Shown here: positions 13,777 to 36,702 of the stretch, one piece after another
Layout: every line of letters begins with the position of its first letter
Numbering within the stretch: position 1 is the first letter of the stretch
Virus record (IMG/VR): IMGVR_UViG_3300012008_000021
Coordinates: 1-37,398 of that record
DNA length: 37,398 bases
Strand: one strand, 5' to 3'
Origin: a virus
Made by a program: the position numbers and the translations under genes
The notes under the pieces: generated by a model
Told to the model about the DNA's origin: nothing
Seen by the model: the letters and a program-made list of their open reading frames with translations, nothing else
Databases searched by the model: none

Positions 13777-13784
13777 CCTACAAC

Positions 13785-15651: not shown

Positions 15652-15695
15652 TTAGTTGTTAGCTCCTGTTTTTGGGGTGGCGGCCCGGGACCGTC

Positions 15696-16400: not shown

Positions 16401-16448
16401 TTCTTTTCTCCCTTAGAGATTGAATGGCGCCTATCTCTAGGCGTTGAT

Positions 16449-16676
16449 TTACACACGGACTTCTGGCACACGGGTCCAAGTGCCCTTGGGATACTGAGCC
16501 GTCGCCCCAATCGCGTTCCAGATAAACACACTGGAATCTTCTCTGACGACGAAATTGGAATCGTAGTAATAGACAAAGCCGTCACCAGCCTTGACGACTA
16601 CCAAGTAGAACGAGCCGTGATCCGCGAAGGCGGGTAGGCCGTATGGTTGTGCGGCGAGAATCGCAACTAATGGCAT
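16449..16676 (-). CDS. Hypothetical small protein
   Basis: 75 residues between the repeat fibre and the scaffold, starting 3 nt after the fibre stop. Beta-rich with aromatic pairs (SFYLVVVKAGDGFVYYYDSN) and an end KGTWTRVPEVRV. It may be an accessory of the fibre encoded before it, such as a chaperone or tip domain. No family is recognised, and there is no strong ribosome site, although spacing suggests coupling. Confidence 0.55.
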   Translation of the reverse strand: MPLVAILAAQPYGLPAFADHGSFYLVVVKAGDGFVYYYDSNFVVREDSSVFIWNAIGATAQYPKGTWTRVPEVRV

Positions 16677-16679
16677 GAG

Positions 16680-18002
16680 CTACTCGAACAGGTCGAAGAT
16701 TTTGTTGATGATCGTGGTTCCGCCGCTACCGCTGGGCACTTTGTTGAATGGGATTTGGAGCAGTCCTTTCACAGTCGTGACGGAAGTGACGGCTAAGGTT
16801 CGCGCCGCGATAATCCGTTTCGCAAAGCCCATCGCAGTTACGGACGTAAGCGACAAAATCTTGCTCGTAGCCCGGACCATAAAGGCCGTACCAACGCTCG
16901 TCACCGCGAGTAACTTGCCGGTCAGTCGAGTCTGCGTCACGGTGGTGGCAGAAGTGACGCCGCCCACCCGAGCGGGGGACAGGCCGATCTGTCGAGTCTG
17001 CGTAACGGTGCCAGGGCTAGTGATCCCGAACGCATGGAATACCACCTTGTAGAACAGTACGCCCACGGTCGAGGTTATGACGAGTTCGAGCTTGCCCACG
17101 GCCCGCTGTAGGAAGGTGGTAGTGGGAGAGGTAACGGTCAAGAGCTTACCGGAACGCCGAGTCAAGGCCGTGGTGGTGACGCTAGTGACGGCCAAGGGTA
17201 GGACAGGCGTGATCTTTTTAGCTACCGCCGTGGTCGTTCCGCTCGTCACCGCCCCTACGGACGCCGCTGCCTTTGAAGTCTTACGGACGGCCAGCACGGT
17301 TGTGACGCTAGTGACGGCCTCCAGCTTGCCGGGTTTCTTGACGATGCTGGTAGTGGTTGCGCTAGTGACGCTACCAAAGTCGTAGGTGAGGCGCACCATT
17401 CCCGGTGTGCCGTTAGAACCTACGGCCAAGCTTGAGGCCCCACCGCCACCACTACCGGGTTGATTGCCGGAGGTTGCTACCGCGATCCCGTTAGCGCCAG
17501 TACCACCCGTTCCGCCGTCAGGAGTACCACCAGCACCACCTGTAATGTTCGGCCCTCCTGTGCCACCAGCACCAGCAGACCCAGCGCCACCGCCGCCACC
17601 TGCGCCGCTGGCTACGCCAGCACCACTCTGGATTCCACCTGTACCGCCATGGAAGGTGCCCGTACCGCCTGCACCGCCTGCACCGGGACCAAGGGCGGAG
17701 CCGTTAGCTCCCGCCAGTCCGGGGTTGGCCGTGACTGCATTGACCCCACTGGTGTAGCTAGAAGCGTTGCCGTTGGTAGCGACTGCACCACGAGCGCCTA
17801 CTACTACGGTCGCAGCGCCGGTTACGGGGGTAGCAAAGGTTGAGGTCTGATATGCGCCGCCACCGCCGCCACCGCCGCCATCTACGGTGGCAGTACCACC
17901 ACCACCACCACCACCCCAGCACTCAACCTTGAGGTTAGCGGTTCCAACGGGGATGTTTACCGCGTAGGTTCCGGCAGTCCTATAGGTGGTTGTGATGGAC
18001 AT
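16680..18002 (-). CDS. Glycine-rich head fibre with about 11 VTS repeats
   Basis: 440 residues. N-terminal 1-30 (MSITTTYRTAGTYAVNIPVG) and the following Gly-rich block (31-205, many GGAGG runs) match the phage glycine-rich fibre domain that forms polyglycine-II-like bundles. Residues 207-425 hold about eleven repeats of about 19 residues with core AVTSVTT-x6-R-x4-KLL (for example VTSVTTTALTRRSGKLL, VTSVGTAFMVRATSKIL). Located between portal and scaffold, so more likely a head-attached or tail fibre than an enzyme. The C-terminus is polar (GSGGTTIINKIFDLFE). Confidence 0.75.
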   Translation of the reverse strand: MSITTTYRTAGTYAVNIPVGTANLKVECWGGGGGGGTATVDGGGGGGGGAYQTSTFATPVTGAATVVVGARGAVATNGNASSYTSGVNAVTANPGLAGANGSALGPGAGGAGGTGTFHGGTGGIQSGAGVASGAGGGGGAGSAGAGGTGGPNITGGAGGTPDGGTGGTGANGIAVATSGNQPGSGGGGASSLAVGSNGTPGMVRLTYDFGSVTSATTTSIVKKPGKLEAVTSVTTVLAVRKTSKAAASVGAVTSGTTTAVAKKITPVLPLAVTSVTTTALTRRSGKLLTVTSPTTTFLQRAVGKLELVITSTVGVLFYKVVFHAFGITSPGTVTQTRQIGLSPARVGGVTSATTVTQTRLTGKLLAVTSVGTAFMVRATSKILSLTSVTAMGFAKRIIAARTLAVTSVTTVKGLLQIPFNKVPSGSGGTTIINKIFDLFE

Positions 18003-18016
18003 TTAGCCCCCTCGGG

Positions 18017-18388
18017 CTATGCGAAGGTAAGTTTGAAGGTGTAAGCGATGGAGTCGTTGATTAGGAGGGGTATCCCGGCGTGATCGCCCTTGACGAACAG
18101 GTTACCCACGGTCGCGGCGTCGAACACGCCCGCGTTAGTAATCGTCTTAGTGCCGTTGGCAACAAGCGTGTAGACCATCTGGAAGGTGTCGTTGGCGACG
18201 TTTACAAGTTGCTGCGTAAGCGTCGCAGTAACCCGAGCCTCGGACGCTTCGGTAAATAGCGTAGTGTCAGTGACCGCCGCCGTACCCGCGCCAGTACCCC
18301 AGGCACCCTGATTATTGGTCGTGGTAACGCCACCCGTCAGGCGTCCGGTGTTCTGTCCCTTACCAACGGTCGTAAATACATTAGCCAC
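18017..18388 (-). CDS. Beta-rich structural protein
   Basis: 123 residues from a GTG (GGGGAG 7 nt upstream) that overlaps the zinc-ribbon gene by 8 bp. A longer start is rejected because it would overlap by 47 bp. Pattern VFTTVGKGQNTGRLTGG, AVTDTTLFTEASEARVT, then a VYTLVANGTKTITNAG strand pair and a final TFKLTFA. This plan (T-x-x-LFTE-x-x-E-R, then TITNAGVFDA) recurs in small virion proteins of siphophages. Probably part of the fibre/head decoration set. Confidence 0.68.
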   Translation of the reverse strand: MANVFTTVGKGQNTGRLTGGVTTTNNQGAWGTGAGTAAVTDTTLFTEASEARVTATLTQQLVNVANDTFQMVYTLVANGTKTITNAGVFDAATVGNLFVKGDHAGIPLLINDSIAYTFKLTFA

Positions 18389-18656
18389 CGATAATCTCCC
18401 CGACTGGCGCCACACCTTGAGGTTCACTCACGGCGTCCTGTTTTGTCTTTGGGGCCAACGGAGGACTAATCTGGCCGACCGTCACAAGGTTGACCGCTCC
18501 GCAATACCCACACTCAAGTTGATGAATCCCAGCAGGACCGTTTAGGTGGATTTCCTCCTGACAGTTACCGCAGTCGTAGAACGCCACCTCGGACGGTGCG
18601 CCAGTCGCGGGGTGGGGAACGAACGGGGACGTACTATCGTCGCTGGCGTCAGGCAT
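18381..18656 (-). CDS. Zinc-ribbon protein
   Basis: 91 residues; AAGGAG 6 nt before the ATG. Core YDCGNCQEEIHLN followed 15 residues later by LECGYCGAVN: two CxxC pairs, a canonical rubredoxin-like zinc ribbon. Flanks are polar and Pro-rich, probably disordered. It overlaps its neighbours on both sides by 8 bp. Position among structural genes, not regulators, is unusual. Role unknown. Confidence 0.65.
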   Translation of the reverse strand: MPDASDDSTSPFVPHPATGAPSEVAFYDCGNCQEEIHLNGPAGIHQLECGYCGAVNLVTVGQISPPLAPKTKQDAVSEPQGVAPVGEIIGG

Positions 18657-18810
18657 CAATATCTCCTTCGGCTATCACGCCGAGTTCTTCGATTCTTGGG
18701 TTCGGACATTTATGGTCCGGTTCATAAGTCTTTAGCCCGCAGCCGCAGCGAATTACGGTGGCGCTGAGTTCTAGATGTCCGATGCTCGTAACCGCTTGTT
18801 CCTGTTGCAT
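18649..18810 (-). CDS. 53-residue Cys/His protein
   Basis: ATG directly after the stop of the fibre-like gene, with GGAGG 5 nt upstream. The core RCGCGLKTYEPDHKCPNP gives C-x-C and H-x-C ligands that could bind one zinc ion. It precedes the zinc-ribbon gene with an 8-bp overlap, so two small metal-binding proteins are produced in tandem. No family recognised. Confidence 0.6.
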   Translation of the reverse strand: MQQEQAVTSIGHLELSATVIRCGCGLKTYEPDHKCPNPRIEELGVIAEGDIDA

Positions 18811-19536
18811 CTAAACCTCCAAGTAACGCAGGGTTGCATAGACGGTCGCCGCCGCCGACAGATTGACAATTAGGTTATCGCTCACGGCACCAGCGACAAA
18901 AGCAGGACCGCCGCCATACTCAGCGCCGATGTTAGCGGCCACAACTTGCGCCGGGGACATCGACTGTAAATCGACCTTGGCGCTTGTAGTCGGGGCGATA
19001 GTACCGATACGGGTAGCGGCCAAAACTATCGGGCCGTTGTTTCCATCGGCGGAAAGCTTGAGGCAGTAAATCTGCAACGTCTTACCGGCAGTTGTAGCGT
19101 GAGCAACGGTGTCGCCACTAGCGGTAATCGTTACGGTGTCGGTCGAGAGTTGCTTAGGTGTTAGGCTCGTCGGCTGCGTCGCCTGCCAGAAGGTACCCGA
19201 CACCGGCTGAGTGGCTTGCCAAAAGCTGCCAGTAACAGCCACCGACCCCAGCGCCGTGACGATATCCGCCAGCGTCTTACCAGATTTGATAAGGTCTGCC
19301 AGGGACGTGAGTGTAATGTCGAGGTTGGTCGCGTTGACAAGCTGGTCGGTGGGGAAGGCGGGGAAGTTATTGATCCCGATTTTACCCGTACCGTCGATGA
19401 CGATGACGTTCCCAGCCTGATCGCACAACCACACCGGCTCGAGGTCGCCCGTGTTGCCGTCGATAGTGACGGTGCCAAGTAGTAACGGTTCGCCGCCCGC
19501 GACATCGGGGGCGACGTGGTAGAGCTTGGTCGTCAC
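18811..19536 (-). CDS. Fibre-like virion protein after portal
   Basis: 241 residues, ATG next to the portal stop. Contains twin copies of FWQATQPVSG (about 104-125), the phrase SG-x-FWQATQPVSG that recurs in many siphophage virion proteins. Then comes a C-terminal beta domain (TVTITASGDTVAHATTAGKT, YCLKLSADGNNG, AATVYATLRYLEV) typical of head fibre or adhesin tips. Its position between portal and scaffold is common for head-associated fibres. Confidence 0.7.
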   Translation of the reverse strand: MTTKLYHVAPDVAGGEPLLLGTVTIDGNTGDLEPVWLCDQAGNVIVIDGTGKIGINNFPAFPTDQLVNATNLDITLTSLADLIKSGKTLADIVTALGSVAVTGSFWQATQPVSGTFWQATQPTSLTPKQLSTDTVTITASGDTVAHATTAGKTLQIYCLKLSADGNNGPIVLAATRIGTIAPTTSAKVDLQSMSPAQVVAANIGAEYGGGPAFVAGAVSDNLIVNLSAAATVYATLRYLEV

Positions 19537-21231
19537 CTAGAAGTTCGGCCCGTCAGGGGCAGGACCGTCGTTGCCCGAAGCCCCCGGCGTATTGGGGTTA
19601 TTCGATGGAGCAGCGGGGGTCCCGGGGTCCTGAGTATCCGTCGGCGCCGCTAGCGTTGGCTCAGGGAGCGTCGGTGCTACCACAACTGGGGTGGGCTTAC
19701 TGGCGGCGTCAGCAGCCAAAATAAGCTTGACTTCCTCGTCAACCGCCTCGGGGGTCCAGTCGGGATTGACGAGCATGACTTTCGTTTTCGTACTAACGGC
19801 ATGAGCCGCCGCCAGCAACGAAACAAACGTCGCCGTCACGGTCGGTTCGGCGGGTACGCCGTCGGGGAAAATCACCTTCGGACGATGGCCACCGGCGACG
19901 CCACCGAAAACATTTGCGTCTATCTGTAGCATGACTTCTAAAATGTCAGCCAAAGGACGCGCCCAATAGGTCAGTTTTTTGTTACGAGTTGTCAGCGAAC
20001 GATGCTCACGGCTGGCGATTTCGGTCGCCGTCGCGGGGAAAACCTTTTGGTCGCTCTTAGCTTGAAAGGTTGCGTAACTGTAGCCAGCCGTCGAGACGAT
20101 CCGGTTTACGAAATCATCGGCCATCGCCGCGTGTTCGGCGCATCGAATCGCAAATTGACTGTTCGTAATCGACCCTTCGGTCGCGGGCATCCCGTCCAGG
20201 GTCGTGAAAATCTCTTGGTCGCTATCGAACTCCGCGCCCTTACCAACGCCGTTCGAGCGGAGCCAGTCGGCGGGCACAATCAAACGGGCACGGCCTAGTC
20301 GTAGGTCACGCATCCATGACGAGTAAATCTCGTCTAAGGCATCCATAAACCCTTCGGTTCCCTGAAAGTCGCTACGGCCCAAGTCAGTCGAGCGGAACGA
20401 ACGGTTGGGCCGTATATTCGGAACGTAAACGGCGGTAAGCATATCAACGCCAGTCTCGAGCGAATTGCCATCGACAAAATCGTTGATCGCTAATGGAGCC
20501 GTCGCCGGTTGATCTGTCAGGGGTCGAAGCTCCCCGAGATTATTGCGCCCGCCCTCATAAAGACCGTGGAGGATTTTACCTTTTTCGTGGCGCTCGAGGT
20601 GCCGCCAAACGATGTCGCCGTCATCGGAGACGACGCGCCAAAACGTAACCGCCTCAAGAACGCCCCAACGAAACTCGGGGATCGCGGAGTCAGACTCGAC
20701 CGCCGTAATAAAGGGATGATCGGCAAAGTCCGGGTCGTAACTCACACGCAGGTAGACGCCGCCAAGCGCAGCCGCCTTTTCAGCCGCCTCGTTGAGAAAC
20801 GAATCGAAAGACATAGACTCGAGTAGCTCATCGAGCGCATCTTGCGCCGCCAGGCCACCCACGCGACCCTTCGCCCCTTTCGCTAAGTGAGCATCTTCGA
20901 TACGGAACTCGGGGGGTTTGGCGAATAATAGGTCAGCCGAGATCGTAGCCATATCGGACGCGATAGGGACGTGGAGCCGTGTGCGCTGGAACGGGATCGT
21001 AGTCGAGCGCCGCGCCCAAAACTTCCACTTCTGGCGGAGCAACGATCCTTGACGGTCCTGAGACGAAATCGTCGGGACCCCAAGGTACTGGTCCATAAGC
21101 ACAGCGCCGCCGTAGACGCTCGAGAGCGCCGCCGGGTCCCCGCTATACCAAGCCGCGTGTTCCTTGAATTGGTTGTAGACGGGTAGGAACGGCTCCGGCG
21201 GCCACTTACCGCCGCCTGTTGGGAGGGGCAC
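19537..21231 (-). CDS. Portal protein
   Basis: 564 residues. Features: early YNQFKEHAAWYSGDP, WKFWARRSTTIPFQRTRLHV, AADLLFAKPPEFRIED-like segment, a central EFRWGVLEAVTFWRVV strand pair, then YSSWMRDLRLGRARLIVP and the C-terminal FPDGVPAEP before a Pro/Thr/Asp tail (510-564). These match the SPP1 gp6-like portal family. GTG start 25 nt after the terminase nuclease stop. The portal forms the dodecameric channel and docks the terminase. Placement after terL supports the call. Confidence 0.9.
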   Translation of the reverse strand: MPLPTGGGKWPPEPFLPVYNQFKEHAAWYSGDPAALSSVYGGAVLMDQYLGVPTISSQDRQGSLLRQKWKFWARRSTTIPFQRTRLHVPIASDMATISADLLFAKPPEFRIEDAHLAKGAKGRVGGLAAQDALDELLESMSFDSFLNEAAEKAAALGGVYLRVSYDPDFADHPFITAVESDSAIPEFRWGVLEAVTFWRVVSDDGDIVWRHLERHEKGKILHGLYEGGRNNLGELRPLTDQPATAPLAINDFVDGNSLETGVDMLTAVYVPNIRPNRSFRSTDLGRSDFQGTEGFMDALDEIYSSWMRDLRLGRARLIVPADWLRSNGVGKGAEFDSDQEIFTTLDGMPATEGSITNSQFAIRCAEHAAMADDFVNRIVSTAGYSYATFQAKSDQKVFPATATEIASREHRSLTTRNKKLTYWARPLADILEVMLQIDANVFGGVAGGHRPKVIFPDGVPAEPTVTATFVSLLAAAHAVSTKTKVMLVNPDWTPEAVDEEVKLILAADAASKPTPVVVAPTLPEPTLAAPTDTQDPGTPAAPSNNPNTPGASGNDGPAPDGPNF

Positions 21232-21256
21232 TACTAACAGGTACCTTCGCGGGCGC

Positions 21257-21925
21257 TCATATCATCGTTTCCTTAGGTGGGCCGAATTCCGGCGGGGTTG
21301 TAGTGCCAAACAATGCGGGGTCAGTCCCGGTATGTCGAAGCCAAACGGCCAGCATGAGGGCGCTCACGATATCATCGTGGTCCTTTTGCTTGGCCGCCTC
21401 GAACGACGTTGATCCACTAGCCCGAGTCTTAGCCTCGTAGGTCCTAAGTTCCTGCATTAGTTCGGGCGCCAAGGGTAGGTTGGCGTCGAGCCGTAGGCGA
21501 CGCTCCTGAATGAGCGCCTGTAGGTTCGTAAAGAGAGCTTGCTTAGGCACGGAGCGTCGCTTTGGTTCGACCTGCCCCGAGATCACGATAGGTCGAGGGC
21601 TAAAGTCGCCCAGGCGCCCAGCCCGCCACGCATTGAGAAATCGAGCGTAGATCGGGCCGCCCACGCCGCCGATGCCGGTGGCGTCAATGACGAGTAGAGC
21701 TTCGCTGAGCGGCCCCTTAGCCATGAGTTCGCTCAGGCGGTCAACGATGAGATGCCAAGGCGTGTGCAGGTCCCATCGGATTATTCTTTCGATCCGGTAG
21801 AAGTCTGTCACTGTCTCGCGGGTCGGAAAGGGCACTTCTAAAACTTGCTGGCGCCGTTCAACCACTACGGCGGCTGAGTGGTCAACCACCTGCCCCAAGT
21901 CGAGGCCGATAACGTGGTTAGCCAT
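21257..21925 (-). CDS. terL: Terminase large subunit, nuclease domain
   Basis: 222 residues from ATG 21925 (MANHVIGLDLGQ). It encodes the RNase H-like nuclease half only: catalytic Asp 9 in GLDLG, Asp 81 in LLVIDATGIGG and Asp 184/185 in KDHDDIVSA. A 5-nt gap separates it from the ATPase gene. An upstream in-frame start (21946) would overlap. Cuts concatemers at packaging start and end. The gene is separate from the ATPase, so the large subunit is split and both chains must associate. Confidence 0.85.
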   Translation of the reverse strand: MANHVIGLDLGQVVDHSAAVVVERRQQVLEVPFPTRETVTDFYRIERIIRWDLHTPWHLIVDRLSELMAKGPLSEALLVIDATGIGGVGGPIYARFLNAWRAGRLGDFSPRPIVISGQVEPKRRSVPKQALFTNLQALIQERRLRLDANLPLAPELMQELRTYEAKTRASGSTSFEAAKQKDHDDIVSALMLAVWLRHTGTDPALFGTTTPPEFGPPKETMI

Positions 21926-21930
21926 GCTCG

Positions 21931-22686
21931 TTAGCCATTCGACCAATCCGGGCCGACGCCGCCGGTCATGCCTTGAATGTCATCTTCCCGAAACACTTGC
22001 TCCCGTGCCTCAGTAAAGACGCCCATATATTCCTGTCGGTACAGCCACTCACCCATATCCCGGCGTTCCTCGGCCAAGAACTCCGGGCTAATTCGCGGGC
22101 AATCGTCGGCTGTGATTTGAACACGCTTCCAGTCGCCAGAACCGGACCACGCATCCCACCACCAGCCGCGTTTTCCGGCGGGGGTTGAGAGGGCAATAAT
22201 GCCACCGCCCGAGACTGCAAGCATAGGCCGGATCGCGGTCATAAGCTCATCATCAACTCGGGATGCTTCGTCCACGATCAGTAGACGAACGCCTGAGTAC
22301 CCTCGGACGGTGGATTCTGAGCCGGGTAAACACACCAGGCGACTACCATTCTCGAGGGTCAGGGTCAGGGCAGATTCAGCTTCGGCCTTGACCGGCTTAC
22401 CGAGTCCACGGTAGACGGCCTTGCACTTGCGAAACAACTCACCACTCTGCCGGAGCGACGGGGACAGGAGCAGCACTACCGACCCCGGCTGGTACACGGC
22501 GACGTGTACGGCGCGAAGGCTGGCGGTCGTGGACTTACCCGACTGGCGGCAGCAGTTGAGCAGGATACGAGGATGATCGCTACGCAGGACATCGTTCTGC
22601 CAGGGGTCCGGGTCCATTCCGATCTGACCCGCCAGCGCCGCCGGGTTGAGCGCCCGCTTGAGGTCGCCGCGTAGCGCCGAAGTCAC
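21931..22686 (-). CDS. terL: Terminase large subunit, ATPase domain
   Basis: 251 residues; GTG start coupled to the small-subunit stop (GTGA). Walker A CCRQSGKST (45-53), Walker B LLIVDEAS (135-142) and coupling motif ALSTPAGKRG (165-174) are all intact. An arginine-rich C-terminal region (EYMGVFTEAREQVFRED) precedes the stop, where in single-chain terminases the nuclease domain would begin. It drives DNA translocation into the prohead. Confidence 0.9.
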   Translation of the reverse strand: MTSALRGDLKRALNPAALAGQIGMDPDPWQNDVLRSDHPRILLNCCRQSGKSTTASLRAVHVAVYQPGSVVLLLSPSLRQSGELFRKCKAVYRGLGKPVKAEAESALTLTLENGSRLVCLPGSESTVRGYSGVRLLIVDEASRVDDELMTAIRPMLAVSGGGIIALSTPAGKRGWWWDAWSGSGDWKRVQITADDCPRISPEFLAEERRDMGEWLYRQEYMGVFTEAREQVFREDDIQGMTGGVGPDWSNG

Positions 22687-23153
22687 AGCGCGTCGGCAAG
22701 CTTGAGCCTACATTCAGGACAGATGGTGTCCACAATGACGCCTCGAATCTCAAGCCACTCGGGAGAGTTAGTCAGGTTGATGACGGTCGTAGGCCGGTCG
22801 TCTAGCTCCCCGGTGATCCGGGCGATAAGCTCGAGGGTGGCTCTCATTTCGCGCATCGCCGCCAATCCCTGCCCGGGTATCCGTCTCTGTTTGGCGATGC
22901 GTAGGAATAGGCGAGTGTCAGCGAGTTGAGCTTCCAGGCGTTCCAGCAACGGCGCCTCGGGGGATATCTCCGGGGAATCGGGCACGGCGACTACGCCAGG
23001 ACTGAGGTGGTTGACTTTATGCCGGGAGATCGCCTTAGAACTCATGCCGTATTGAGCCGCGATCTTTTGGTACGGGACACCACCGACAACCTTCCGGTCG
23101 ATCTCGGCTGCCTGTTCGTGTAGACAAATCGAGCAAGTTCCAGGTCCCGGCAT
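22683..23153 (-). CDS. terS: Small terminase subunit with Cys-pair HTH
   Basis: 156 residues with a strong AAGGGGAG ribosome site. An N-terminal CSIC pair leads into a helix-turn-helix (EIDRKVVGGVPYQKIAAQYG then SSKAISRHKVNH). A central helical part (LERLEAQLADTRLFLRIAKQ) for oligomerisation follows, and a C-terminal SPEWLEIRGVI segment with another CPEC. This layout is typical of small terminases of actinophage-like siphoviruses, which recognise the packaging site. First gene of the late operon. Confidence 0.75.
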   Translation of the reverse strand: MPGPGTCSICLHEQAAEIDRKVVGGVPYQKIAAQYGMSSKAISRHKVNHLSPGVVAVPDSPEISPEAPLLERLEAQLADTRLFLRIAKQRRIPGQGLAAMREMRATLELIARITGELDDRPTTVINLTNSPEWLEIRGVIVDTICPECRLKLADAL

Positions 23154-23200
23154 CGTCGGCTCCCCTTCCGGTATCTCTACCGACTAGAGCGCCGACTAAC

Positions 23201-23372
23201 TTATCGACGCAGGGCTACTATCCTGAGAAGCTCCCGAACGTCAGGAGCGTCCATAAACCACTCGCCAATACTGCGCGACGAGTTGAAAGTACGGCGTACC
23301 GACCGCGATGGCGGCGTCGATAGCATCTCGGTCGAGATGACGGCAAACGAGACAGGTTCCAGGTCCCGGCAC
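23201..23372 (-). pseudogene. Decayed copy of the small terminase gene
   Basis: A GTG-started frame gives PGPGTCLVCRH, then AIAVGTPYFQLVAQY, closely matching the first 40 residues of the small terminase (PGPGTCSICLH, GGVPYQKIAAQY). The 16-bp DNA GTTCCAGGTCCCGGCA is identical in both. After QYW the frame breaks, and a shift by one base gives GEWFMDAPDVRELLRIV, resembling the terminase C-terminal SPEWLEIRGVI part. The middle (about 90 residues) is missing. An extended -10 box stands 7 nt upstream, so it may still be transcribed as the leader of the terminase operon. Confidence 0.6.
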
Positions 23373-23379
23373 AAGATCC

Positions 23380-23388
23380 AGTATAGCA
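23380..23388 (-). promoter_or_regulatory. Extended -10 promoter TGCTATACT, late operon
   Basis: Minus-strand TGC-TATACT, an extended -10, is followed by 7 nt and the GTG at 23372. No -35 match. It is the best leftward promoter candidate ahead of the terminase and structural operon. Two TTATGCAT boxes lie just upstream, where an activator or repressor could act. Confidence 0.55.
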
Positions 23389-23405
23389 CCGCCCCATCTC
23401 GGGCT

Positions 23406-23424
23406 ATGCATAACGGATGCATAA
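23406..23424. repeat. Phased TTATGCAT box pair
   Basis: Two direct copies of an 8-bp box (ATGCATAA on plus, TTATGCAT on minus) at 23406-23413 and 23417-23424, 11 bp apart, one helical turn. Each contains palindromic ATGCAT. They lie at about -33 to -51 relative to the predicted leftward start, where a regulator would overlap the -35 region. Confidence 0.5.
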
Positions 23425-23872
23425 GAAACCGGGAACTCGTATTTTCCCGACCGGACGGTTTGATAAAAGGGCGCTAGAGAAGCCGACCGCCCCACTACAG
23501 GGGGTACCCGGTGAAGGTAGGCACGCTATATCTTGTGGTTTGCATCTCAGCGGGCAAGATCAGCGAGGTTGATTAGTAATGTATATTATGCACTACCAAT
23601 CACGTTGCTCTACTCGCCACCAGCATGATGATGCTCATGGTGCCTTGCTTGAGTGACCACGACAGGAGAGCCGCTACATACAGTCACTACCACAGGCCAG
23701 ATATAGCCCCCCGGTCGCCACTTGAAAGAAACCTATGGACCACGCCACTAGTAGGTGTGACTGGCGCCTAATCCATGCGCGGGTGGCGGCGATCACCTAC
23801 CCCCACCCGACCCCACCCGGGGAATGGTTGGGGATCTAAACAGGACCGTACTCCTATACACCACCCCAATAG
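23425..23872. other. Intergenic control region, no genes seen
   Basis: About 450 bp between divergent transcription units without a convincing reading frame on either strand. It contains an AT-richer stretch (GATTAGTAATGTATATTATG, 23571-23590), a small inverted repeat AGCAT-GATG-ATGCT (23622-23635), repeated GACCACG and CACTACC words, and the G-rich motif near 23800. It is next to the terminase genes, so it may also hold the packaging recognition site. No diagnostic cos or pac element can be shown from one sequence. Confidence 0.4.
23800..23818 (-). other. G-quadruplex motif
   Basis: The minus strand reads GGGTGGGGTCGGGTGGGGG: four runs of at least three G with loops of 1, 2 and 1 nt, the pattern of a very stable parallel quadruplex. 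On the template side of rightward genes and on the RNA of any leftward transcript. It lies midway between the two divergent promoters. Confidence 0.6.
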
Positions 23873-23901
23873 TTGACATATGCCCCATACCGTAGTATGG
23901 T
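23873..23901 (+). promoter_or_regulatory. Strong rightward promoter
   Basis: Perfect -35 TTGACA (23873-23878), a 17-bp spacer and -10 TATGGT (23896-23901). The ATG of the first rightward gene lies 7 nt further, so transcription would start at or next to the start codon. The same layout recurs at 36411-36448. Confidence 0.8.
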
Positions 23902-23908
23902 AGGTGAC

Positions 23909-24133
23909 ATGAACACACACACACCACCCTACCACTACTCAGCCGATGAGCCAGAGGGCAGCAGCCTAATGCCCTCACCTGTGCATGATGCACAGCGGGC
24001 AGCCGCTATCGTCTACACGATGTTTGGCTCACACGTCCCCATGCAGCCACTACACGCCATGCGGGAAGCCGACAAGATCGAGCGTCAAATCCTTGACGCC
24101 CTCAACCACTTCTATCAGACAGGAGACGCCTAA
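23909..24133 (+). CDS. Hypothetical early protein, probably leaderless
   Basis: 74 residues from ATG 23909. An upstream in-frame TTG is the -35 box itself and is rejected. Polar N-terminus (NTHTPPYHYSADEPEG) and a C-terminal helix pair (DAQRAAAIVYTMFG, EADKIERQILDALNHFYQ). First of three genes on a strong promoter pointing away from all neighbours, a position typical of immediate-early host-takeover proteins. No family recognised. Confidence 0.65.
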   Translation: MNTHTPPYHYSADEPEGSSLMPSPVHDAQRAAAIVYTMFGSHVPMQPLHAMREADKIERQILDALNHFYQTGDA

Positions 24134-24321
24134 TGGCACTTACTTTTGAACAATGGTTCGACAGCGCCGACCACATATGCCAGCTTCGTAGTGGGCTTCG
24201 GCTAGACGACTTGCCTGACGGCCCATCATGGGACGCTTGGGACAATGACATCTCGCCAGCTAACTACGTCTACGATCAACTTCGCGAAGCTGGTTACTAC
24301 CAGGGAGGTGAATTCGCGTGA
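24133..24321 (+). CDS. Small acidic early protein
   Basis: 62 residues; TAATG start. Sequence FEQWFDSADHICQLRSG, then LRLDDLPDGPSWDAWDNDIS and ANYVYDQLREAGYY. It resembles small phage proteins with the pattern GLS-x-x-DLPD-x-x-W-x-D ... SP-x-x-A (DUF5419-like, recalled not searched). Net acidic. Function unknown; membership in the early trio suggests host interaction. Confidence 0.65.
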   Translation: MALTFEQWFDSADHICQLRSGLRLDDLPDGPSWDAWDNDISPANYVYDQLREAGYYQGGEFA

Positions 24322-24443
24322 AAACAGACTTCGCCATCACCGCCGTTGTCAGCATCGTCCTGTGCGGAGCGGTCGCGCTGGCCCTAGACCACTTCGGGAT
24401 TATCCCGTTGTGGGTTTGGCTACCAGGCGGTCACGGATACTAA
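24318..24443 (+). CDS. Small membrane protein of early trio
   Basis: 41 residues, GTG coupled to the previous stop (GTGA). Residues 6-24 are hydrophobic (AITAVVSIVLCGAVALAL), followed by a second short hydrophobic segment (FGIIPLWVWLPGG). Ends with TAA, overlapping by 4 bp the end of the convergent leftward gene, so no room exists for a separate terminator. Membrane association is the only property that can be stated. Confidence 0.6.
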   Translation: MKTDFAITAVVSIVLCGAVALALDHFGIIPLWVWLPGGHGY

Positions 24444-24862
24444 GGCGTAGGCGCAGCCACGATATGCGAATCGTCGTATGAGTGGTCGCGCCAGCGCCTT
24501 TCGCCCCACGCGACGTAGGACTTGAATCCAGGCTCGTCGTAATCGCGAGTAAAAGCTTCCATCTGAGCCGCGACCGAAACAACCGTCGCCTCGGTGCGAG
24601 ACTTACCAGCTTCCTCGAGTTGCCTACGCGCTTCGCAGGCCAGCGCAAGCTGAACTTTGAGCGACGGAGCCGCAGGCTTCGGTCCAGGCGCAGCCTCGAG
24701 CTTCAACACGCACCGTGGACAGGTCGCGGTTCGTAGTTGCCGCATCGGACCCGCAAAACTCATCGAAATCTGCTCTTTCACGTCGATCAAGTATTGATCC
24801 GTCGTATAGGCAGCATTACAAGCTTCGCACCACACCGATGATCCGATCCGAGCGTCAGCCAT
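24440..24862 (-). CDS. Zinc-ribbon protein
   Basis: 140 residues. N-terminal VWCEACNAAY and later ATCPRCVLKLE form two CxxC pairs 35 residues apart. A Pro/Ala linker and a helical C-terminal half (LALACEARRQLEEAGKSR, EAFTRDYDEPGFKS) follow. Last gene of the leftward early region, convergent with the rightward trio. Could bind DNA or protein; no family recognised. Confidence 0.62.
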   Translation of the reverse strand: MADARIGSSVWCEACNAAYTTDQYLIDVKEQISMSFAGPMRQLRTATCPRCVLKLEAAPGPKPAAPSLKVQLALACEARRQLEEAGKSRTEATVVSVAAQMEAFTRDYDEPGFKSYVAWGERRWRDHSYDDSHIVAAPTP

Positions 24863-25050
24863 TAGTTAGCGTTGAAGCGGAATGGGCGAACGACAGGAAT
24901 CGCAAGCTGGGCAGCCGAAGCCAAAATCTCTTTCGCCACGGGACACTCGAAGCTACAAACAGTGACGTGCAGAACCTTCAAGTTTTCCTCGGTCGTAATC
25001 GGCGTCAGGGTGCAGCCACAAGGGTAAGACTTAGCGACTATCAACGTCAC
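24862..25050 (-). CDS. Small Cys-containing protein
   Basis: 62 residues; GTG start overlapping the previous gene by 20 bp, and directly abutting the following ATG. Core SYPCGCTLTPIT and VTVCSFECPVAKE provide four Cys as C-x-C and C-x3-C, likely a small zinc site. The C-terminus ends RPFRFNAN. Unrecognised. Confidence 0.5.
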   Translation of the reverse strand: MTLIVAKSYPCGCTLTPITTEENLKVLHVTVCSFECPVAKEILASAAQLAIPVVRPFRFNAN

Positions 25051-25285
25051 CTCGGCGCGACCGACGGCTGTAGGCGGATTTCAAAACTCCGGCGCCGCGT
25101 CCGTAGAGGTCAGAAAACAACGTAGTTTGGAAAAAGCTGTTTTCCCGCACTTGGCGAGATTTCATTTGCCGATTTGTCAGGACGGGATACTTTGACTCGA
25201 CCACGGCGTCACGCTCACGATCAGCGGTTCGTGCCTGCGCCATAAACTCAGCGACAGCCCTTTCGTGTTGCGCGAACGTAGTCAT
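25031..25285 (-). CDS. Hypothetical basic protein
   Basis: 84 residues, start after AAGG at short spacing. Mainly helical N-terminus (FAQHERAVAEFMAQARTADR) and basic C-terminus (SAYSRRSRRGDVDSR). No Cys cluster or membrane segment. Its C-terminal frame overlaps the next gene by 20 bp. Function unknown. Confidence 0.5.
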   Translation of the reverse strand: MTTFAQHERAVAEFMAQARTADRERDAVVESKYPVLTNRQMKSRQVRENSFFQTTLFSDLYGRGAGVLKSAYSRRSRRGDVDSR

Positions 25286-25313
25286 TACCTTGCATGAATC
25301 CTCAGATTACCGC

Positions 25314-25514
25314 TTACTTGTGAGCTACGCGCAAGTGAACCGGCAACGGAACGCCGATCCAGCCCTTTTTACCTACGCCTGCACTCGACCGCGCCGCACA
25401 GAGGATGCAGTACCAACGGTAAGTGCTACCAGGCTTGTTCCGGGTCGCATCGTTGCCGGATTTTCCATTCGGGCGACGGGGCATATTCGGCGGGAGCGGC
25501 TTAGAGTTCTTCAC
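25314..25514 (-). CDS. C2H2-like small zinc finger protein
   Basis: 66 residues from a GTG lying 6 nt after a TATAAT box. Basic N-terminus (PPNMPRRPNGKSGND), then YRWYCILCAARSS, a basic loop and PLPVHLRVAHK: C-x2-C and H-x3-H spaced as a C2H2-type finger at the extreme C-terminus. Probably nucleic-acid binding. Confidence 0.55.
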   Translation of the reverse strand: MKNSKPLPPNMPRRPNGKSGNDATRNKPGSTYRWYCILCAARSSAGVGKKGWIGVPLPVHLRVAHK

Positions 25515-25520
25515 GCCTCA

Positions 25521-25526
25521 ATTATA
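25521..25526 (-). promoter_or_regulatory. Perfect -10 TATAAT before gene 25514
   Basis: Minus-strand TATAAT overlaps the TAA stop of the upstream sigma-like gene and is followed by six bases and the GTG at 25514. No -35 match. It fits the leaderless pattern seen elsewhere, although chance overlap with a stop codon cannot be excluded. Confidence 0.45.
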
Positions 25527-26127
25527 CGCCAATCTCCCCGGGCAACTCCCGAAGCTTCAAGTGGCCGTCTGAGACGTAGACGCGAACCGTTGAGGGGTGC
25601 AGGCCCATAAAAAGAGCGATGTCATTGTCGGTCGCGCCTTGCAGGTGCATATAGTAAGCCTCACGCTGCCTCGGCGTTAGCTCCGCCGCCACTAACACCG
25701 CCTCGACGCCCACGTCGAAAATCTCATGCAGGAACGGGAAGTCGGCCAGGAACGCCGTCAGCCGTTGACTCATCTCCGGCTCAGTCTCGACCATCGCCAA
25801 CTTTAGGACGCTGATATTCGCGCCCAAGAGGACATCGACCAGTCGCGCCGCCAACTGTTCCTCTTTCGTGAGCAGCGACACAACACCGTCAGGCACACGT
25901 CCTGCGTTAGGATCGCCACCCGGGATCGCCTTTTGATGAGGAATAACCTGCCAGATACGTTCTAAGGGCCGCAAGCGGTCAGCGTGATAGTTATACCGCC
26001 TTAGTATGCGCTGGCGCCTACGCGAAGGCTCAACCCTACTAGCAAGCCAACGGGCGATGGCGCCTTCCTGATCCTTGTAAGCCGCCGCTTCCATCCTTGT
26101 GACGTAGGGTGGCTGCGACGGCGGCAT
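25522..26127 (-). CDS. Sigma-like / HTH transcription regulator
   Basis: 201 residues; TGATG start. The C-terminal 50 residues (LTPRQREAYYMHLQGATDND, then IALFMGLHPSTVRVYVSDGH) have the sigma-70 region 4 pattern: Q-R-E, then a helix-turn-helix with S-T-V-R-V-Y. The N-terminal part (basic RRRQRILRRYNYHADRLRPL) and a helical middle are not clearly sigma region 2. It may be a phage late-transcription activator or partial sigma. A candidate to read the special promoters of this genome. Confidence 0.65.
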   Translation of the reverse strand: MPPSQPPYVTRMEAAAYKDQEGAIARWLASRVEPSRRRQRILRRYNYHADRLRPLERIWQVIPHQKAIPGGDPNAGRVPDGVVSLLTKEEQLAARLVDVLLGANISVLKLAMVETEPEMSQRLTAFLADFPFLHEIFDVGVEAVLVAAELTPRQREAYYMHLQGATDNDIALFMGLHPSTVRVYVSDGHLKLRELPGEIGV

Positions 26128-26408
26128 CAGGGCGCGACCACCTCGTCATCGACGGCGCCTGATCCCCAAGTGTACACGTCGCCGTTATCCGTGATCTTCC
26201 GTCGCTCGTAAGGCACAGCGACGCGCCGGTAGAACTCGAGCTTGGCGCCTTCGAGCGCCCCGAGAATATCGTTGATCGCTTGGTAGGTGGTGCCCTTCGT
26301 TTCCAAGTAGTCGATCAACGCTTCCGTGATTTTGTAGTTGAGTTCGCCAGCGTTTGTCGGCCCAATTTCAAGAGCAGGCTTGCGAAGGTGGTTTTGAATG
26401 TAAGGCAA
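26127..26408 (-). CDS. DUF6899-like conserved phage protein
   Basis: 93 residues with the signature of a small family common in phages and some bacteria: MPYIQNHLRKPALEIG, AGELNYKITEALIDYL, then YQAINDILGALEGAKLEFYR, ending with YERRKITDNGDVY. All positions expected for the family are present. Function is unknown. Start decided by the ATG right behind the upstream gene. Confidence 0.85.
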   Translation of the reverse strand: MPYIQNHLRKPALEIGPTNAGELNYKITEALIDYLETKGTTYQAINDILGALEGAKLEFYRRVAVPYERRKITDNGDVYTWGSGAVDDEVVAP

Positions 26409-26822
26409 TTAGGCCACAATCTCACGATCCCGCAACGCCGGAGCCGTCCTAAGACACCGCTTCCACGTCTCGTAGAACTCGATCCCGGGCAGGTAGTGGA
26501 ACACATGCTGGCGAAACCCGACGATGATGATGCGCTTGCCGGTGCCCAAGGCGTACCCAAACTCGGTATGCTGGCCGCCACGCGACGTTGACGGCTCCCG
26601 CGCCTCGTCAGGGAATTGAATGAGACAGTCGGCAGCGTCGATGTCGGAGATGTCATCGACGGCGAACCGTCGAGCCTTTTTCGGCGCGTACACTTCGCTC
26701 AGGTGGTGGTCGCCACCGAGCCAACGACTTGTGACCGTATGGCCGAGAGCTTCGAGGTCGGTTTTGTAGTCGTTCAATTCACTGATCCGGCTATATCTAC
26801 TTGCTAGGTAAATCTTCAACAC
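26409..26822 (-). CDS. Nucleoside 2-deoxyribosyltransferase-like protein
   Basis: 137 residues from TTG 26822 (GGGAG upstream, start MKIYLASRYSR). A longer open frame upstream is a shadow of the RuvC-like gene. Motifs: KIYLASRYSR, VDDISDIDAADCLIQF and GGQHTEFGYALGTGKRIIIV. The Glu in HTEFGYA corresponds to the catalytic Glu of nucleoside 2-deoxyribosyltransferases, which swap bases on deoxynucleosides or hydrolyse nucleotides. Could serve nucleotide salvage or supply of a modified base. Confidence 0.75.
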   Translation of the reverse strand: MLKIYLASRYSRISELNDYKTDLEALGHTVTSRWLGGDHHLSEVYAPKKARRFAVDDISDIDAADCLIQFPDEAREPSTSRGGQHTEFGYALGTGKRIIIVGFRQHVFHYLPGIEFYETWKRCLRTAPALRDREIVA

Positions 26823-27372
26823 GATCTCCCTTGCGTACCTTACGCTTTTGTTTCGCCAACGGCGGAACGTACAGGCCGTGAATACGCTGCCACACGGCGA
26901 ACGCGACGGCCCAGGCTTCGAGCGAATCGAGGCTATCAGGGTGCGTCCCGTCAAGCTGTAGCGGCCACAGGCGGGATAGCTCAGGGCCAATCGCCGCCTT
27001 ATGGAACTTATGATCGAGGCCCTCGAGCCGATGATGCCAGCCCGGGCCGAGTAACTGGCGCCGCCACGCCGACGGCGGTAAAACAACGACGGGGATATGC
27101 AGTCCCCACAAGAGCGCCCGTAAGACGCCGCCAAGCTCCCCGAGCGTTTCGCGCTGGTAGCTCGAGCCGAAGCTGTAGCCCTCCATAGCCACGATCCCGT
27201 CTGCGCCCAGCGACCCCGCCACCGCGTTAGAGACACCTTGACCTAGCCACCATAACCGATCACCGCCTCGACGTTCGCCCGGGCGCAAGGTAGTACCCCA
27301 CGTCCAGTTACCGTCGTCGATAAGCGCCAGGCCCGTAGCCGTGAGGCTAGGGTCGATTCCGAGTATTCTCAC
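26797..27372 (-). CDS. RuvC-like Holliday junction resolvase
   Basis: 191 residues. RNase H-fold motifs of RuvC: Asp 7 in ILGIDPSLTATGLA, Glu 64 in VAMEGYSFG and the pair Asp 147/Asp 150 in HPDSLDSLEAWAVAFA, with the same 3-residue spacing as bacterial RuvC. A basic C-terminus (KQKRKVRKGDRVED) may bind DNA. It resolves branched replication or recombination intermediates before packaging. Overlaps neighbours on both sides. Confidence 0.85.
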   Translation of the reverse strand: MRILGIDPSLTATGLALIDDGNWTWGTTLRPGERRGGDRLWWLGQGVSNAVAGSLGADGIVAMEGYSFGSSYQRETLGELGGVLRALLWGLHIPVVVLPPSAWRRQLLGPGWHHRLEGLDHKFHKAAIGPELSRLWPLQLDGTHPDSLDSLEAWAVAFAVWQRIHGLYVPPLAKQKRKVRKGDRVEDLPSK

Positions 27373-27854
27373 TTCCCGAGGTGAGCGCCGAGGCAGTCAC
27401 CAGGATGCTCGTAGGCGTCCGATAGCCCCAGGACAAAACTACTGCCGCAGCGCCCGCAAACAGGCACCGGGCCATCGGTCGTAGGTCGCCGGGTATGGCT
27501 CCCAGGCGTACACCGCGACACGCAATAGGAACACGTTACAAACCCGGCAGCATCCCAGCCGCAACACTGACAAACGGACGAGGACGAGCTTGGTCGAGGC
27601 TTGTGGAGGTATTCCGCCGACCGTGGCGGCTCATGTATAACCGTGGAACAGTGAGCCAGGCAGTAAGCACACTTTGGACGACCCGAATCACACCCGCAAC
27701 AGGGGCAAAGAAATGACTGCCGGGATATCTCAAGCGCCGCGACCCGGCGATCCAGGTCCCGGTACTGTTTAGCTTGAACGGCGGAGCCGCTACGCTGCGC
27801 TGCCAGGCTATCGACATGCCGCTCAAGCCAAGTGACCCGTTCCCTAAGTCTCAC
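27369..27854 (-). CDS. Coiled-coil protein with duplicated Cys-rich modules
   Basis: 161 residues; GTG after TAG of the previous gene. Residues 1-45 form an amphipathic helix (LRERVTWLERHVDSLAAQ). Then come two related modules: CPCCGCDSGRPKCAYC-x3-C...H (about 50-75) and CQCCGWDAAGFVTCSYC-x3-C...H (about 95-121). A third Cys group follows (CGRCGSSF ... HPGDC). Spacing C-x-C-C-G-x-D ... C-x-Y-C-x3-C-x(4-5)-H suggests two similar zinc-binding units. Not a family I recognise. Confidence 0.65.
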   Translation of the reverse strand: MRLRERVTWLERHVDSLAAQRSGSAVQAKQYRDLDRRVAALEISRQSFLCPCCGCDSGRPKCAYCLAHCSTVIHEPPRSAEYLHKPRPSSSSSVCQCCGWDAAGFVTCSYCVSRCTPGSHTRRPTTDGPVPVCGRCGSSFVLGLSDAYEHPGDCLGAHLGK

Positions 27855-33874: not shown

Positions 33875-34041
33875 TTCCGCAGCCCCGCCTGCACCCGCCG
33901 TATGTCGATCAACTGACAGGTCCGTGAACAGAAGGTCCCGCCCCGGTCATCAGGGATCGGGGTGGCGCATATCGGGCAGCCGCGACGAGCGCCTGTGCGT
34001 ACCTCCCGCTTGACGATCTTGCGGTTAGATGCCCTACCCAC
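33871..34041 (-). CDS. 56-residue Cys-rich protein
   Basis: GTG overlapping the HNH stop, about 10 nt after GGAG. Basic N-terminus (GRASNRKIVKREVRTGARR), then GCPICATPIPDDRGGTFCSR and TCQL: pairs C-x2-C and C-x3-C as in zinc fingers of the C2C2 type with a helical end. Probably nucleic-acid binding. Confidence 0.58.
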   Translation of the reverse strand: MGRASNRKIVKREVRTGARRGCPICATPIPDDRGGTFCSRTCQLIDIRRVQAGLRK

Positions 34042-34597
34042 GGTAGGTGATCTCCGCCAGGCGCACTAGGAACGGTTCGGGGTTATGGCCTTCGCGCCAC
34101 TCTCGTAGGTTGAGTAGTAAGAATAAACCCGGTTCGTGGTCGAACATAGCGTGATGGATGGCGCAGAGGGGTATGCGACTGTCCGTATCGGCGGGTCCCC
34201 CGTCGGCAACAGCATGAATGTGAGCCGCCTCAATCCTTGCGTGTACGTAGGGGCAACCGGAGACTTGGCATACGCCTTTATAGTGTCGCTTGACGGCATT
34301 ACCGAGCCTCGTATGCCTTGGGTCGCGTAGTGATACTTGGCGCCCGTTGATAGGTGGTAGAGCGCCGAGATGTTCGGGGGTAAAGAGGAACGTAGTCACA
34401 TAAGGCTTAGTGTAGGTGGCGCGGCTGGCAGCGTCGGCGGCCTTTCGCTCTGGGGTCATAGCGGCCCGTCTGTCTCGTAGTTGTCGTGCCTTTCGTGCCA
34501 AAAATGCCATCTTTTGCTCCGGGGTCATAGCGGCCACAGCGTCTCGTTGTCGTTGTGCCTGTCGTGCCCCAAATGCCATCTTTTGCTCCGGGGTCAT
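34034..34597 (-). CDS. HNH endonuclease with tandem N-terminal repeats
   Basis: 187 residues from ATG 34597 (ATGA coupling; GTG 34606 also possible). Residues 1-60 hold three copies of a 23-residue unit, core MTPEQKMAFLARKARQLRD; two copies share 36 identical base pairs 69 bp apart. The C-terminal domain is HNH: CQVSGCP, IEAAHIHAVADGG, then PLCAIHHAMFD. The repeats look like basic helices and could grip DNA. HNH nucleases of this type are often mobile or assist packaging. Confidence 0.78.
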   Translation of the reverse strand: MTPEQKMAFGARQAQRQRDAVAAMTPEQKMAFLARKARQLRDRRAAMTPERKAADAASRATYTKPYVTTFLFTPEHLGALPPINGRQVSLRDPRHTRLGNAVKRHYKGVCQVSGCPYVHARIEAAHIHAVADGGPADTDSRIPLCAIHHAMFDHEPGLFLLLNLREWREGHNPEPFLVRLAEITYRG

Positions 34598-34606
34598 AGC
34601 GGCCAC
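34502..34606. repeat. 36-bp perfect direct repeat
   Basis: The same 36 bp occurs at 34502-34537 and 34571-34606, a period of 69 bp (23 codons), encoding the repeated MTPEQKMAF units of the HNH protein. Near identity at DNA level points to recent expansion. A third, diverged copy follows at about 34433-34467. Confidence 0.8.
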
Positions 34607-34962: not shown

Positions 34963-34988
34963 TGATTCACTCCCCGGGTATGAATTAC

Positions 34989-35017
34989 CCGATACATAAT
35001 TCTACCACGCCTGTCAA
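34989..35017 (-). promoter_or_regulatory. Leftward promoter TTGACA-N17-TATCGG
   Basis: Minus-strand TTGACA (35017-35012), 17-bp spacer, weak -10 TATCGG (34994-34989) preceded by TG. It would start transcription about 20 nt before the Shine-Dalgarno-led gene at 34962. Confidence 0.5.
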
Positions 35018-35261
35018 GTTGATCTTGGGGTCGGCCCCGGGAAAACCTCGTCCCAGGGCCACCCTTACGGCCACTCGTCATTCGCCACGTTCGCGAGGCG
35101 AGAGCCAAGCGACGGTCGCCCGGACGAACTTGAACGATACCCTGACGACACGTCGCCGTGCTTTATGCCTATACAAAGGTATACCCGGATATAACAGAAG
35201 GACCCGGCACCGCCACGACTCGGGCCGAGTCCTTTCTGCGTAGAGGGAAAAGGTAGATAGG
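35018..35261 (-). other. Non-coding region with branched hairpin after SSB-like gene
   Basis: About 244 bp without a convincing gene. Near the SSB-like stop the minus strand can form a long stem AGAAAGGACTCGGC / GCCGGGTCCTTCT. It competes with an inner perfect stem ACTCGG-C-CCGAGT, so two alternative folds are possible. No U-run follows, so it is not a plain terminator. Further along lie AT-richer words (TATACCTTTGTATAGG). Confidence 0.4.
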
Positions 35262-35756
35262 CTAGAAGTCGGTATCGACGGCACCAGCCGCCGCCGGGAC
35301 CGGCGTAACGCTGGCGTCCGGGGTAGCCGCTGGGCGCCGCCCGCGCCTTGGAGCCGCCGCCGCGCCGCTCCGCCGCAACGTCGAAACCTTGAGGTATTGG
35401 CTATCCTCGCTGGGGTACTGGCCGATCACGACGAGTTCCTTGTCGAGCAAGTCCTTTTCGGGGTCGATGGCGTAAAGTTCCTCGAGGCTAAGTTGATGGT
35501 CGAAGCAAGCCTGCGCCAGGGGAACGAGCTTCGACTTTTCGTGCCAAGAGACGCCAGCGTAATACCAAATCCGGGCATCGGCAAGCTCCGGGTCGGTGGG
35601 GACTAGGACGATCTCAAACTGATCCTTGATCGTGCCGTCCTTGGCGGGAAACTTCGTGTTAGGCACACGCCTGATACTGTCGATGGTGACAGTAATCGGC
35701 TCAAGCTCCGGTAGGGTTGGGAAGTCGGAATCGGTGGGTGGGGCAATCAGGGGCAA
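35262..35756 (-). CDS. Single-stranded DNA-binding-like protein
   Basis: 164 residues from TTG 35756 (GGAGG 7 nt upstream), overlapping the previous gene by 10 bp. Beta-rich core (ITVTIDSIRRVP, KDQFEIVLVPTD, WYYAGVSWHEKSKLVPLAQA) with the SKL helix pattern of phage OB-fold DNA-binding proteins. A Pro/Ala/Arg linker and the acidic tip DTDF typical of SSB C-termini follow. Role: protects single strands in replication and recombination. Confidence 0.7.
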   Translation of the reverse strand: MPLIAPPTDSDFPTLPELEPITVTIDSIRRVPNTKFPAKDGTIKDQFEIVLVPTDPELADARIWYYAGVSWHEKSKLVPLAQACFDHQLSLEELYAIDPEKDLLDKELVVIGQYPSEDSQYLKVSTLRRSGAAAAPRRGRRPAATPDASVTPVPAAAGAVDTDF

Positions 35757-35959
35757 GGGGTTTCCTCCATTGTGTATGATCCAATAGGGCCATTGTTCCA
35801 CTCCCAGGCGCCCAGGACGAAGCGTAACCGCTCGTTGCCAGCTTCCTCATAGGTGCAGTCGAGAACTTCCCCTTCGGTGGTTTCGTAATCGTCGGGGAGC
35901 GCGTCGAGGGTTGCAACGCAGCACCGCATTAGACCGCCTTGGCGAATGTAGTAGGCCAT
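35747..35959 (-). CDS. Hypothetical protein, leaderless early gene
   Basis: 70 residues from ATG 35959, which lies 7 nt after a TATACT box without Shine-Dalgarno. A start 27 nt earlier would contain the -10 box and is rejected. Sequence MAYYIRQGGLMRCCVATLDA, DDYETTEGEVLDCTYEEAGN, WEWNNGPIGSYT: beta-rich and acidic. First gene of the leftward early operon. No family recognised. Confidence 0.62.
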   Translation of the reverse strand: MAYYIRQGGLMRCCVATLDALPDDYETTEGEVLDCTYEEAGNERLRFVLGAWEWNNGPIGSYTMEETPCP

Positions 35960-36001: not shown

Positions 36002-36034
36002 AAAAAAACCCCCGCCACCTAAGTGACGGGGGTT
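36002..36034 (-). terminator. Strong intrinsic terminator
   Basis: Minus-strand stem AACCCCCGTCAC with loop TTAG and GTGGCGGGGGTT (12 bp, one G-U pair), followed by a run of T: a textbook rho-independent terminator. It ends the structured transcript starting near 36333 and insulates it from the early operon. Confidence 0.9.
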
Positions 36035-36333
36035 CCTTCTGTCCTGCCGGAGTGCTGAATCCCCGGGCTTATGGACTTCTCAGAGCGAGTACCGCGACGA
36101 GTATGTATTCCTTTCCGGTCCCTCACCAGCAAGCCCCGCGTGTTGCCACGGCGGGTACTGGTTCGGCTGTAGGACGGTGCCTTGTTACCGGGCCACGGAT
36201 TCAAACTGCTCTTGAGCTTGTGAGGGTCCCGTATCGCAGGTTCATAACCTTCGCCGTACTACGGGACCCTCGGTTTATCGTCCGATCCAACCGGCTCCGC
36301 GATCCTCTCGCCCTGTCGGTCTTTTCTTCTGTA
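36002..36333 (-). ncRNA. Candidate structured non-coding RNA (about 330 nt)
   Basis: Bounded by a TTGACA/TAGATT promoter and the strong terminator, with no plausible gene inside. Foldable elements include a 12-bp perfect stem GAGGGTCCCGTA/TACGGGACCCTC (36274-36225) capped by an inner AGGTT-ATG-AACCT hairpin. There is also a stem ACCAG/CTGGT enclosing CCCG(C)CGTG-GCAA-CACGCGGG with a GNRA tetraloop (about 36164-36127), and a CGGTT/AACCG hairpin. It is not a tRNA and does not match any RNA family I can name. Confidence 0.65.
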
Positions 36334-36339
36334 GGTACT

Positions 36340-36368
36340 AATCTACACCCGCCCAGGGCGCTTGTCAA
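36340..36368 (-). promoter_or_regulatory. Leftward promoter of the ncRNA
   Basis: Minus-strand TTGACA (36368-36363), 17-bp spacer and TAGATT (36345-36340) preceded by GGTG. The predicted start is near 36333. It stands back-to-back, 42 bp away, with the rightward promoter at 36411. Perfect -35 in both. Confidence 0.7.
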
Positions 36369-36410
36369 GTGAATAGTGTTAGACATTACGACTAGACAGT
36401 AGCGTGTAGG

Positions 36411-36440
36411 TTGACAGGGGCGCTGCCGGGGGTGTAAGGT
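36411..36440 (+). promoter_or_regulatory. Rightward promoter TTGACA-N18-TAAGGT
   Basis: -35 TTGACA (36411-36416), 18-bp spacer, -10 TAAGGT (36435-36440) preceded by GGTG, then 7 nt and ATG 36448. Same arrangement as the 23873 promoter, predicting a leaderless message. Two TAGACA words lie upstream at 36380 and 36393. Confidence 0.72.
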
Positions 36441-36447: not shown

Positions 36448-36702
36448 ATGAATGAATTGAACGTAACCCCCGAGTCCCTCCGAGTCTTTCTCGCCTACGC
36501 GGAAGATGCCGGTAATTGGTCGGGTACTCCGCTGGTCGGCGGCAACGTCGGCGGCTCCCCCCAGGAGCGCGGCAACCTGACTCAACTCAAGCAAGCCGGT
36601 CTAATCCTCACGAACGCCGAGGAAGGTAACACTTGGATTTACTTCACCGAAGCGGGCATCGCGCTTGCTGCGGCCCACGGTATCGAGTTGTACTCCCTGT
36701 GA
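36448..36702 (+). CDS. Small winged-helix-like protein
   Basis: 84 residues, starting 7 nt behind a -10 box. Pattern VFLAYAEDAGNWSGTPLVGG, then ERGNLTQLKQAGLILT and WIYFTEAGIALAAAHGI. This is a conserved small phage protein plan (NWSGTPLV, RGNLT-x-LK-x-x-GL), resembling a winged helix with a beta wing. Probably a DNA-binding regulator; the family function is not established. First gene of a rightward pair next to the ncRNA. Confidence 0.78.
   Translation: MNELNVTPESLRVFLAYAEDAGNWSGTPLVGGNVGGSPQERGNLTQLKQAGLILTNAEEGNTWIYFTEAGIALAAAHGIELYSL

Follow-up and report, generated by a model that had tools for sequence, protein, structure and literature searches.

The minus strand of the IMG/VR virus record IMGVR_UViG_3300012008_000021 carries a well-supported noncoding unit that runs from a promoter to a terminator (36368–36002; the window, i.e., the whole stretch of DNA that was analysed, covers positions 1–37,398 of this record, 37,398 bases). 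This unit is probably (at about 55%) a stand-alone small RNA gene, the product of which would be an early phage ncRNA of ~331 nt that ends at a strong terminator (predicted transcript at 36002–36332, as delimited by the promoter and the terminator and by the lack of coding signal). The promoter, the lack of coding signal, the terminator and the gene context are established from the sequence and from statistics on it; we infer an RNA that would be made, stable and abundant and that, by analogy with the Pleft-derived ncRNA of cluster A mycobacteriophages, would act in trans on functions of the host or of the phage.

The window belongs to a tailed phage, as it includes portal, major head, tail and terminase genes together with a primase/helicase gene. 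Nearly all its genes are carried by the minus strand, including an early/replication block at 26–36 kb, and the RNA segment is located directly upstream of this block. An HNH-endonuclease-like protein, whose N-terminal part contains three repeats of the type AAMTPEQKMAFLARKA, is encoded at 34034–34606 on the same strand. The portal and head proteins share ~43% identity with those of the nearest phages of the collection (Streptomyces phages); the IMG/VR relatives of the head protein show at most 53% identity and the portal/capsid relatives mostly 40–50%. Besides portal and capsid, only an 84-aa gene has relatives among the neighbouring genes, and no close relative of the primase, of the exonuclease or of the second gene downstream of the RNA was found in IMG/VR. 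Another record (L026) derives from the same virus (100% identity over 9540–27603) and stops short of the RNA. On these sequence comparisons, the phage represents an orphan lineage. The packaging-related role that had been considered for the RNA in the earlier note is unsupported, the unit adjoining the early/replication genes and lying ~13 kb from the terminase. A long stretch without any clear minus-strand gene (23154–24439), located upstream of the terminase genes, contains a promoter-like site, TTGACA-N17-TATGGT, at 23873 on the plus strand. This stretch is a possible packaging-site region, like that of AGM2 (cos beside terminase), in which case the contig ends would be a permuted cut.

The promoter of the unit, TTGACA-N17-TAGATT, is of the sigma-70 type and is found where the earlier note had read it, on the minus strand at 36368–36340 (TTGACA at 36368–36363, TAGATT at 36345–36340, spacer of 17 nt). 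It matches the consensus at 10 of 12 positions, a grade that is reached by two sites in the 37.4 kb window versus 0.24 expected in shuffled sequences. From this consensus promoter alone, transcription is predicted to start at ~36332. The promoter is divergent from another promoter-like site, TTGACA-N18-TAAGGT (36411–36440, plus strand), which precedes the 84-aa gene (36448–36702, plus strand). This gene has a coding signal and 24 relatives, and its product is a predicted winged-helix DNA-binding protein (AlphaFold pLDDT of 82). Its modelled fold resembles those of MarR/ArsR-type regulators (Foldseek E about 0.01–0.1), which is suggestive, and not proof, of a MarR/ArsR-like winged-helix regulator. 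The two divergent sites also share, beyond the -35 box, a GCGC/CTG/GGGTGTA-like spacer that leads into the -10 box, as if both might be recognised by the same factor.

At the other end of the unit, folding and a window-wide scan for hairpins identified an intrinsic terminator at 36039–36002 on the minus strand, whose 12-bp GC-rich core is lengthened by A-U pairs and followed by T7 (AACCCCCGUCAC-UUAG-GUGGCGGGGGUU + U7 in the RNA). The stem of 12 bp and the T-run had been recognised previously; in addition, this is the sole hairpin of at least 8 bp ahead of a run of at least six T on either strand of the 37.4 kb, with 0.05 expected in shuffles. A standard terminator scan overlooked it because the stem continues into the T-run. 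The promoter, of the best grade, and the only strong terminator thus lie on one strand with 330 nt between them, which speaks for a stand-alone unit.

The RNA between these two signals is predicted to fold into a multibranched structure. The base-pair probabilities indicate a long-range closing helix P1 between CAGGGCGAG (36315–36307) and CUCGCUCUG (36089–36081), next to which AUCGCG (36303–36298) would pair with CGCGGU (36096–36091). The long-range helices P1 and P2 reach pair probabilities of 0.99 and 0.97, and values of 0.97–0.99 obtained from a single sequence express the confidence of the model and not conservation. Folding also delimits a multibranch core (36115–36294) closed by CCGGUU (36294–36289) and GACCGG (36120–36115), which served as the basis of the covariance model R1. 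Two local elements that had been noticed from the letters are indeed present. One is a 12-bp perfect stem with an inner AGGUU/AACCU hairpin (36222–36271, arms at 36271–36260 and 36233–36222); it is the sole perfect inverted repeat of at least 12 bp with a loop of at most 40 nt in the window, where 0.18 would be expected. The other is a hairpin (36125–36162) that ends in a GCAA tetraloop of the GNRA type (36146–36143), the loop being closed by GUG/CAC within CCCGC/GCGGG and ACCAGUA/UGCUGGU.

With its terminator, the full unit has a minimum free energy (MFE) of -145.8 kcal/mol (z -5.3). Without the terminator, the z-score is -3.6 for the minus strand versus -1.0 for the plus strand, and it is -1.1 once both the terminator and the 12-bp hairpin are removed. 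The excess of folding is thus specific to the minus strand and mainly due to the 12-bp hairpin, the remainder behaving like shuffled sequence. A 230-nt stretch of the RNA region ranks sixth of 326 stretches of this length from the window, five others scoring higher. The local parts are far from chance, and energy alone does not establish an elaborate selected global fold. The comparison with 'large ornate' RNAs was overstated in this respect, as the RNA has 331 nt and owes its excess stability mostly to one hairpin and the terminator. Elsewhere on the minus strand, a second non-coding stretch folds well (34970–35250, MFE z -4.4); it separates a small ORF, whose start is at 34962, from the gene that ends at 35262, and displays a strong hairpin after the stop codon and a TTGACA at 35017.

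Homologues of the RNA were sought in several ways. None was found by blastn in the phage and plasmid collections, an absence that applies down to roughly 65–70% identity, or by degenerate scans of IMG/VR and GTDB genomes in which translations of the RNA took the place of a protein query and which by our estimate reach only relatives of roughly 85–90% identity or more. Likewise, two sets of related IMG/VR records (21 and 49) did not reveal any homologue by blastn: the short matches, with a best per-genome E of 0.008, are what chance would give for 49 records, and the ones that were checked fall within long open frames. The single-sequence model R1 did not detect any homologue in more than 100 related contigs. 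The intergenic gaps of phiSASD1 were considered as a comparable locus and rejected, nothing similar being found there. Several of these gaps (near 18.5–19.05, 33.9–34.4 and 35.5–36.2 kb) carry a recurring GGGGAC-N-TCCTCCCCGGTCAG-like element.

The main alternative, possible but somewhat doubtful, is that the segment serves the leftward early operon as its 5' leader, its terminator being a conditional attenuator overcome by an antitermination factor or signal and the RNA having no function of its own. Regulated-terminator leaders (attenuators, riboswitches, HK022 put-type elements) consist of a structured RNA that extends from an early promoter to a terminator ahead of an operon, and the present RNA has the same placement. 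The early genes begin on the same strand 42 nt past the T-run, with a 70-aa gene (35747–35959, weak coding signal) and a 164-aa gene (35262–35756, supported by codon log-likelihood), relatives of which were not found. No full promoter with a -35 box is visible from the terminator to the first ATG, so the unit could act as the leader of these genes. This interval only contains a -10-like TATACT (35972–35967), but this motif, 7 nt ahead of the ATG, could also start a leaderless mRNA. A read-through RNA is predicted to acquire a 10-bp helix surrounding the terminator hairpin, formed by the inverted repeat AGCCCGGGGA (36069–36060) and UCCCCGGGCU (35998–35989). However, the pairing of the upstream RNA with the 5' arm of the terminator is at chance level (39% of shuffles are equally good), the pairing analysis indicates that the terminator hairpin prevails once transcribed, and the Rfam leaders and riboswitches all score below the cut-off. 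The lack of an antiterminator partner better than chance favours a terminated stand-alone unit; it speaks against an attenuation based on pairing, and has no bearing on antitermination by a protein. A complementarity of 36042–36031 to 35205–35194 (11/12) was discarded, since by our estimate ~26 such matches are expected by chance. Alternatively, the segment could be a regulatory or origin region acting at the DNA level between two divergent units, with a short-lived transcript and a terminator that only insulates the early operon. Its position between divergent promoters and beside the predicted winged-helix regulator would fit this proposal, as would the unexceptional fold outside the 12-bp inverted repeat, a repeat that could be a protein site. 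Such a region is nevertheless unlikely, as the fold excess is confined to the transcribed strand, operators do not usually consist of a 12-bp repeat whose arms are 26 nt apart, and the promoter and terminator delimit exactly the non-coding stretch.

That the segment encodes a small protein is very improbable. A 106-aa frame is open on the plus strand (36052–36372) and minus-strand frames can be envisaged, but the codon log-likelihood is negative for the open frames tested across the segment, whereas it is positive for the accepted neighbouring genes, and the degenerate scans of IMG/VR and GTDB did not find any protein-level relative of the translations. The ~330 nt without credible gene of the earlier note are borne out, over 331 nt. 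The layout also recalls that of type III toxin-antitoxin (ToxI-like) systems, in which a promoter, an RNA and a terminator are followed by a small gene. Unlike these, the present RNA is devoid of tandem direct repeats, no direct-repeat array being found within it, which argues against a type III antitoxin RNA, and the neighbouring 70-aa protein does not resemble any toxin family in PHROGs and Pfam. Finally, a phage location and a multibranched predicted fold are what a diverged member of GOLLD, ROOL or a known sRNA class would display, the former two being elaborately folded ncRNAs found in phages and prophages. GOLLD RNAs often exceed 800 nt, and both GOLLD and ROOL are often located near tRNA islands (PMC12286853). 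Many GOLLD RNAs are more than twice as long as the present RNA, and the search for tRNA or tmRNA found none, so that the tRNA neighbourhood of these families is absent. No Rfam family matches it at gathering score, and only terminator-covering fragments and short pieces appear at E up to 10. Membership in these classes is thus extremely unlikely, in agreement with the lack of likeness to GOLLD and ROOL that the earlier note had stated.

Coming back to the stand-alone RNA gene, its expression can be viewed as follows. The strong promoter, of the host-sigma type and divergent from the winged-helix gene, would fire early in infection and produce the ~331-nt ncRNA, which would be the first product of this early promoter. 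The body of the RNA would be multibranched, with the 12-bp hairpin and the GNRA-capped arm. Transcription would then stop at the strong intrinsic terminator ahead of the leftward early/replication genes, and partial read-through may supply the early operon.

This model is reminiscent of the cluster A mycobacteriophages L5, D29 and StarStuff, in which the early promoter Pleft yields a very abundant and stable ncRNA of ~500 nt, with ~90% of transcripts ending before the early genes (PMC5712189). This ncRNA, evidenced by RNA-seq and Northern blot, is processed to smaller species, no canonical terminator was reported for it, and the Pleft region is toxic when cloned (PMC5712189). In both systems, a strong early promoter of the TTGACA type is followed by an ORF-free stretch of several hundred nt, by termination and then by leftward early genes. 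The Pleft RNA is the first early transcript, a place that the present RNA would hold by its layout, and the two differ in size (~500 nt versus 331 nt predicted), the present RNA being known from sequence only. A direct comparison with the Pleft region of D29, by blastn with a word size of 7 and by R1 with filters off, gave only chance-level matches. The present RNA may therefore be said to work like the Pleft RNA, not to be a member of its family. The right end of D29 (47,243–48,538 of the record) also carries repeated sites of the type TTGACAGCCACCG, several of which are followed by TAGAGT-like -10 boxes.

A bolder and rather speculative view is that the RNA would be the first representative to be seen of a novel class of structured early RNAs of phages (~330 nt, multibranched, with a GNRA-capped arm). 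Such RNAs would be produced ahead of the early proteins and would act in trans, either diverting a host process or blocking a defence. The present RNA is better viewed as a candidate with well-defined bounds, from a phage of an orphan lineage, than as a demonstrated new RNA class. Abundant early phage ncRNAs, such as that of cluster A Pleft, are documented, although what they do is still to be explained, and a compact unit with clean limits at its promoter and terminator would make their function easier to test.
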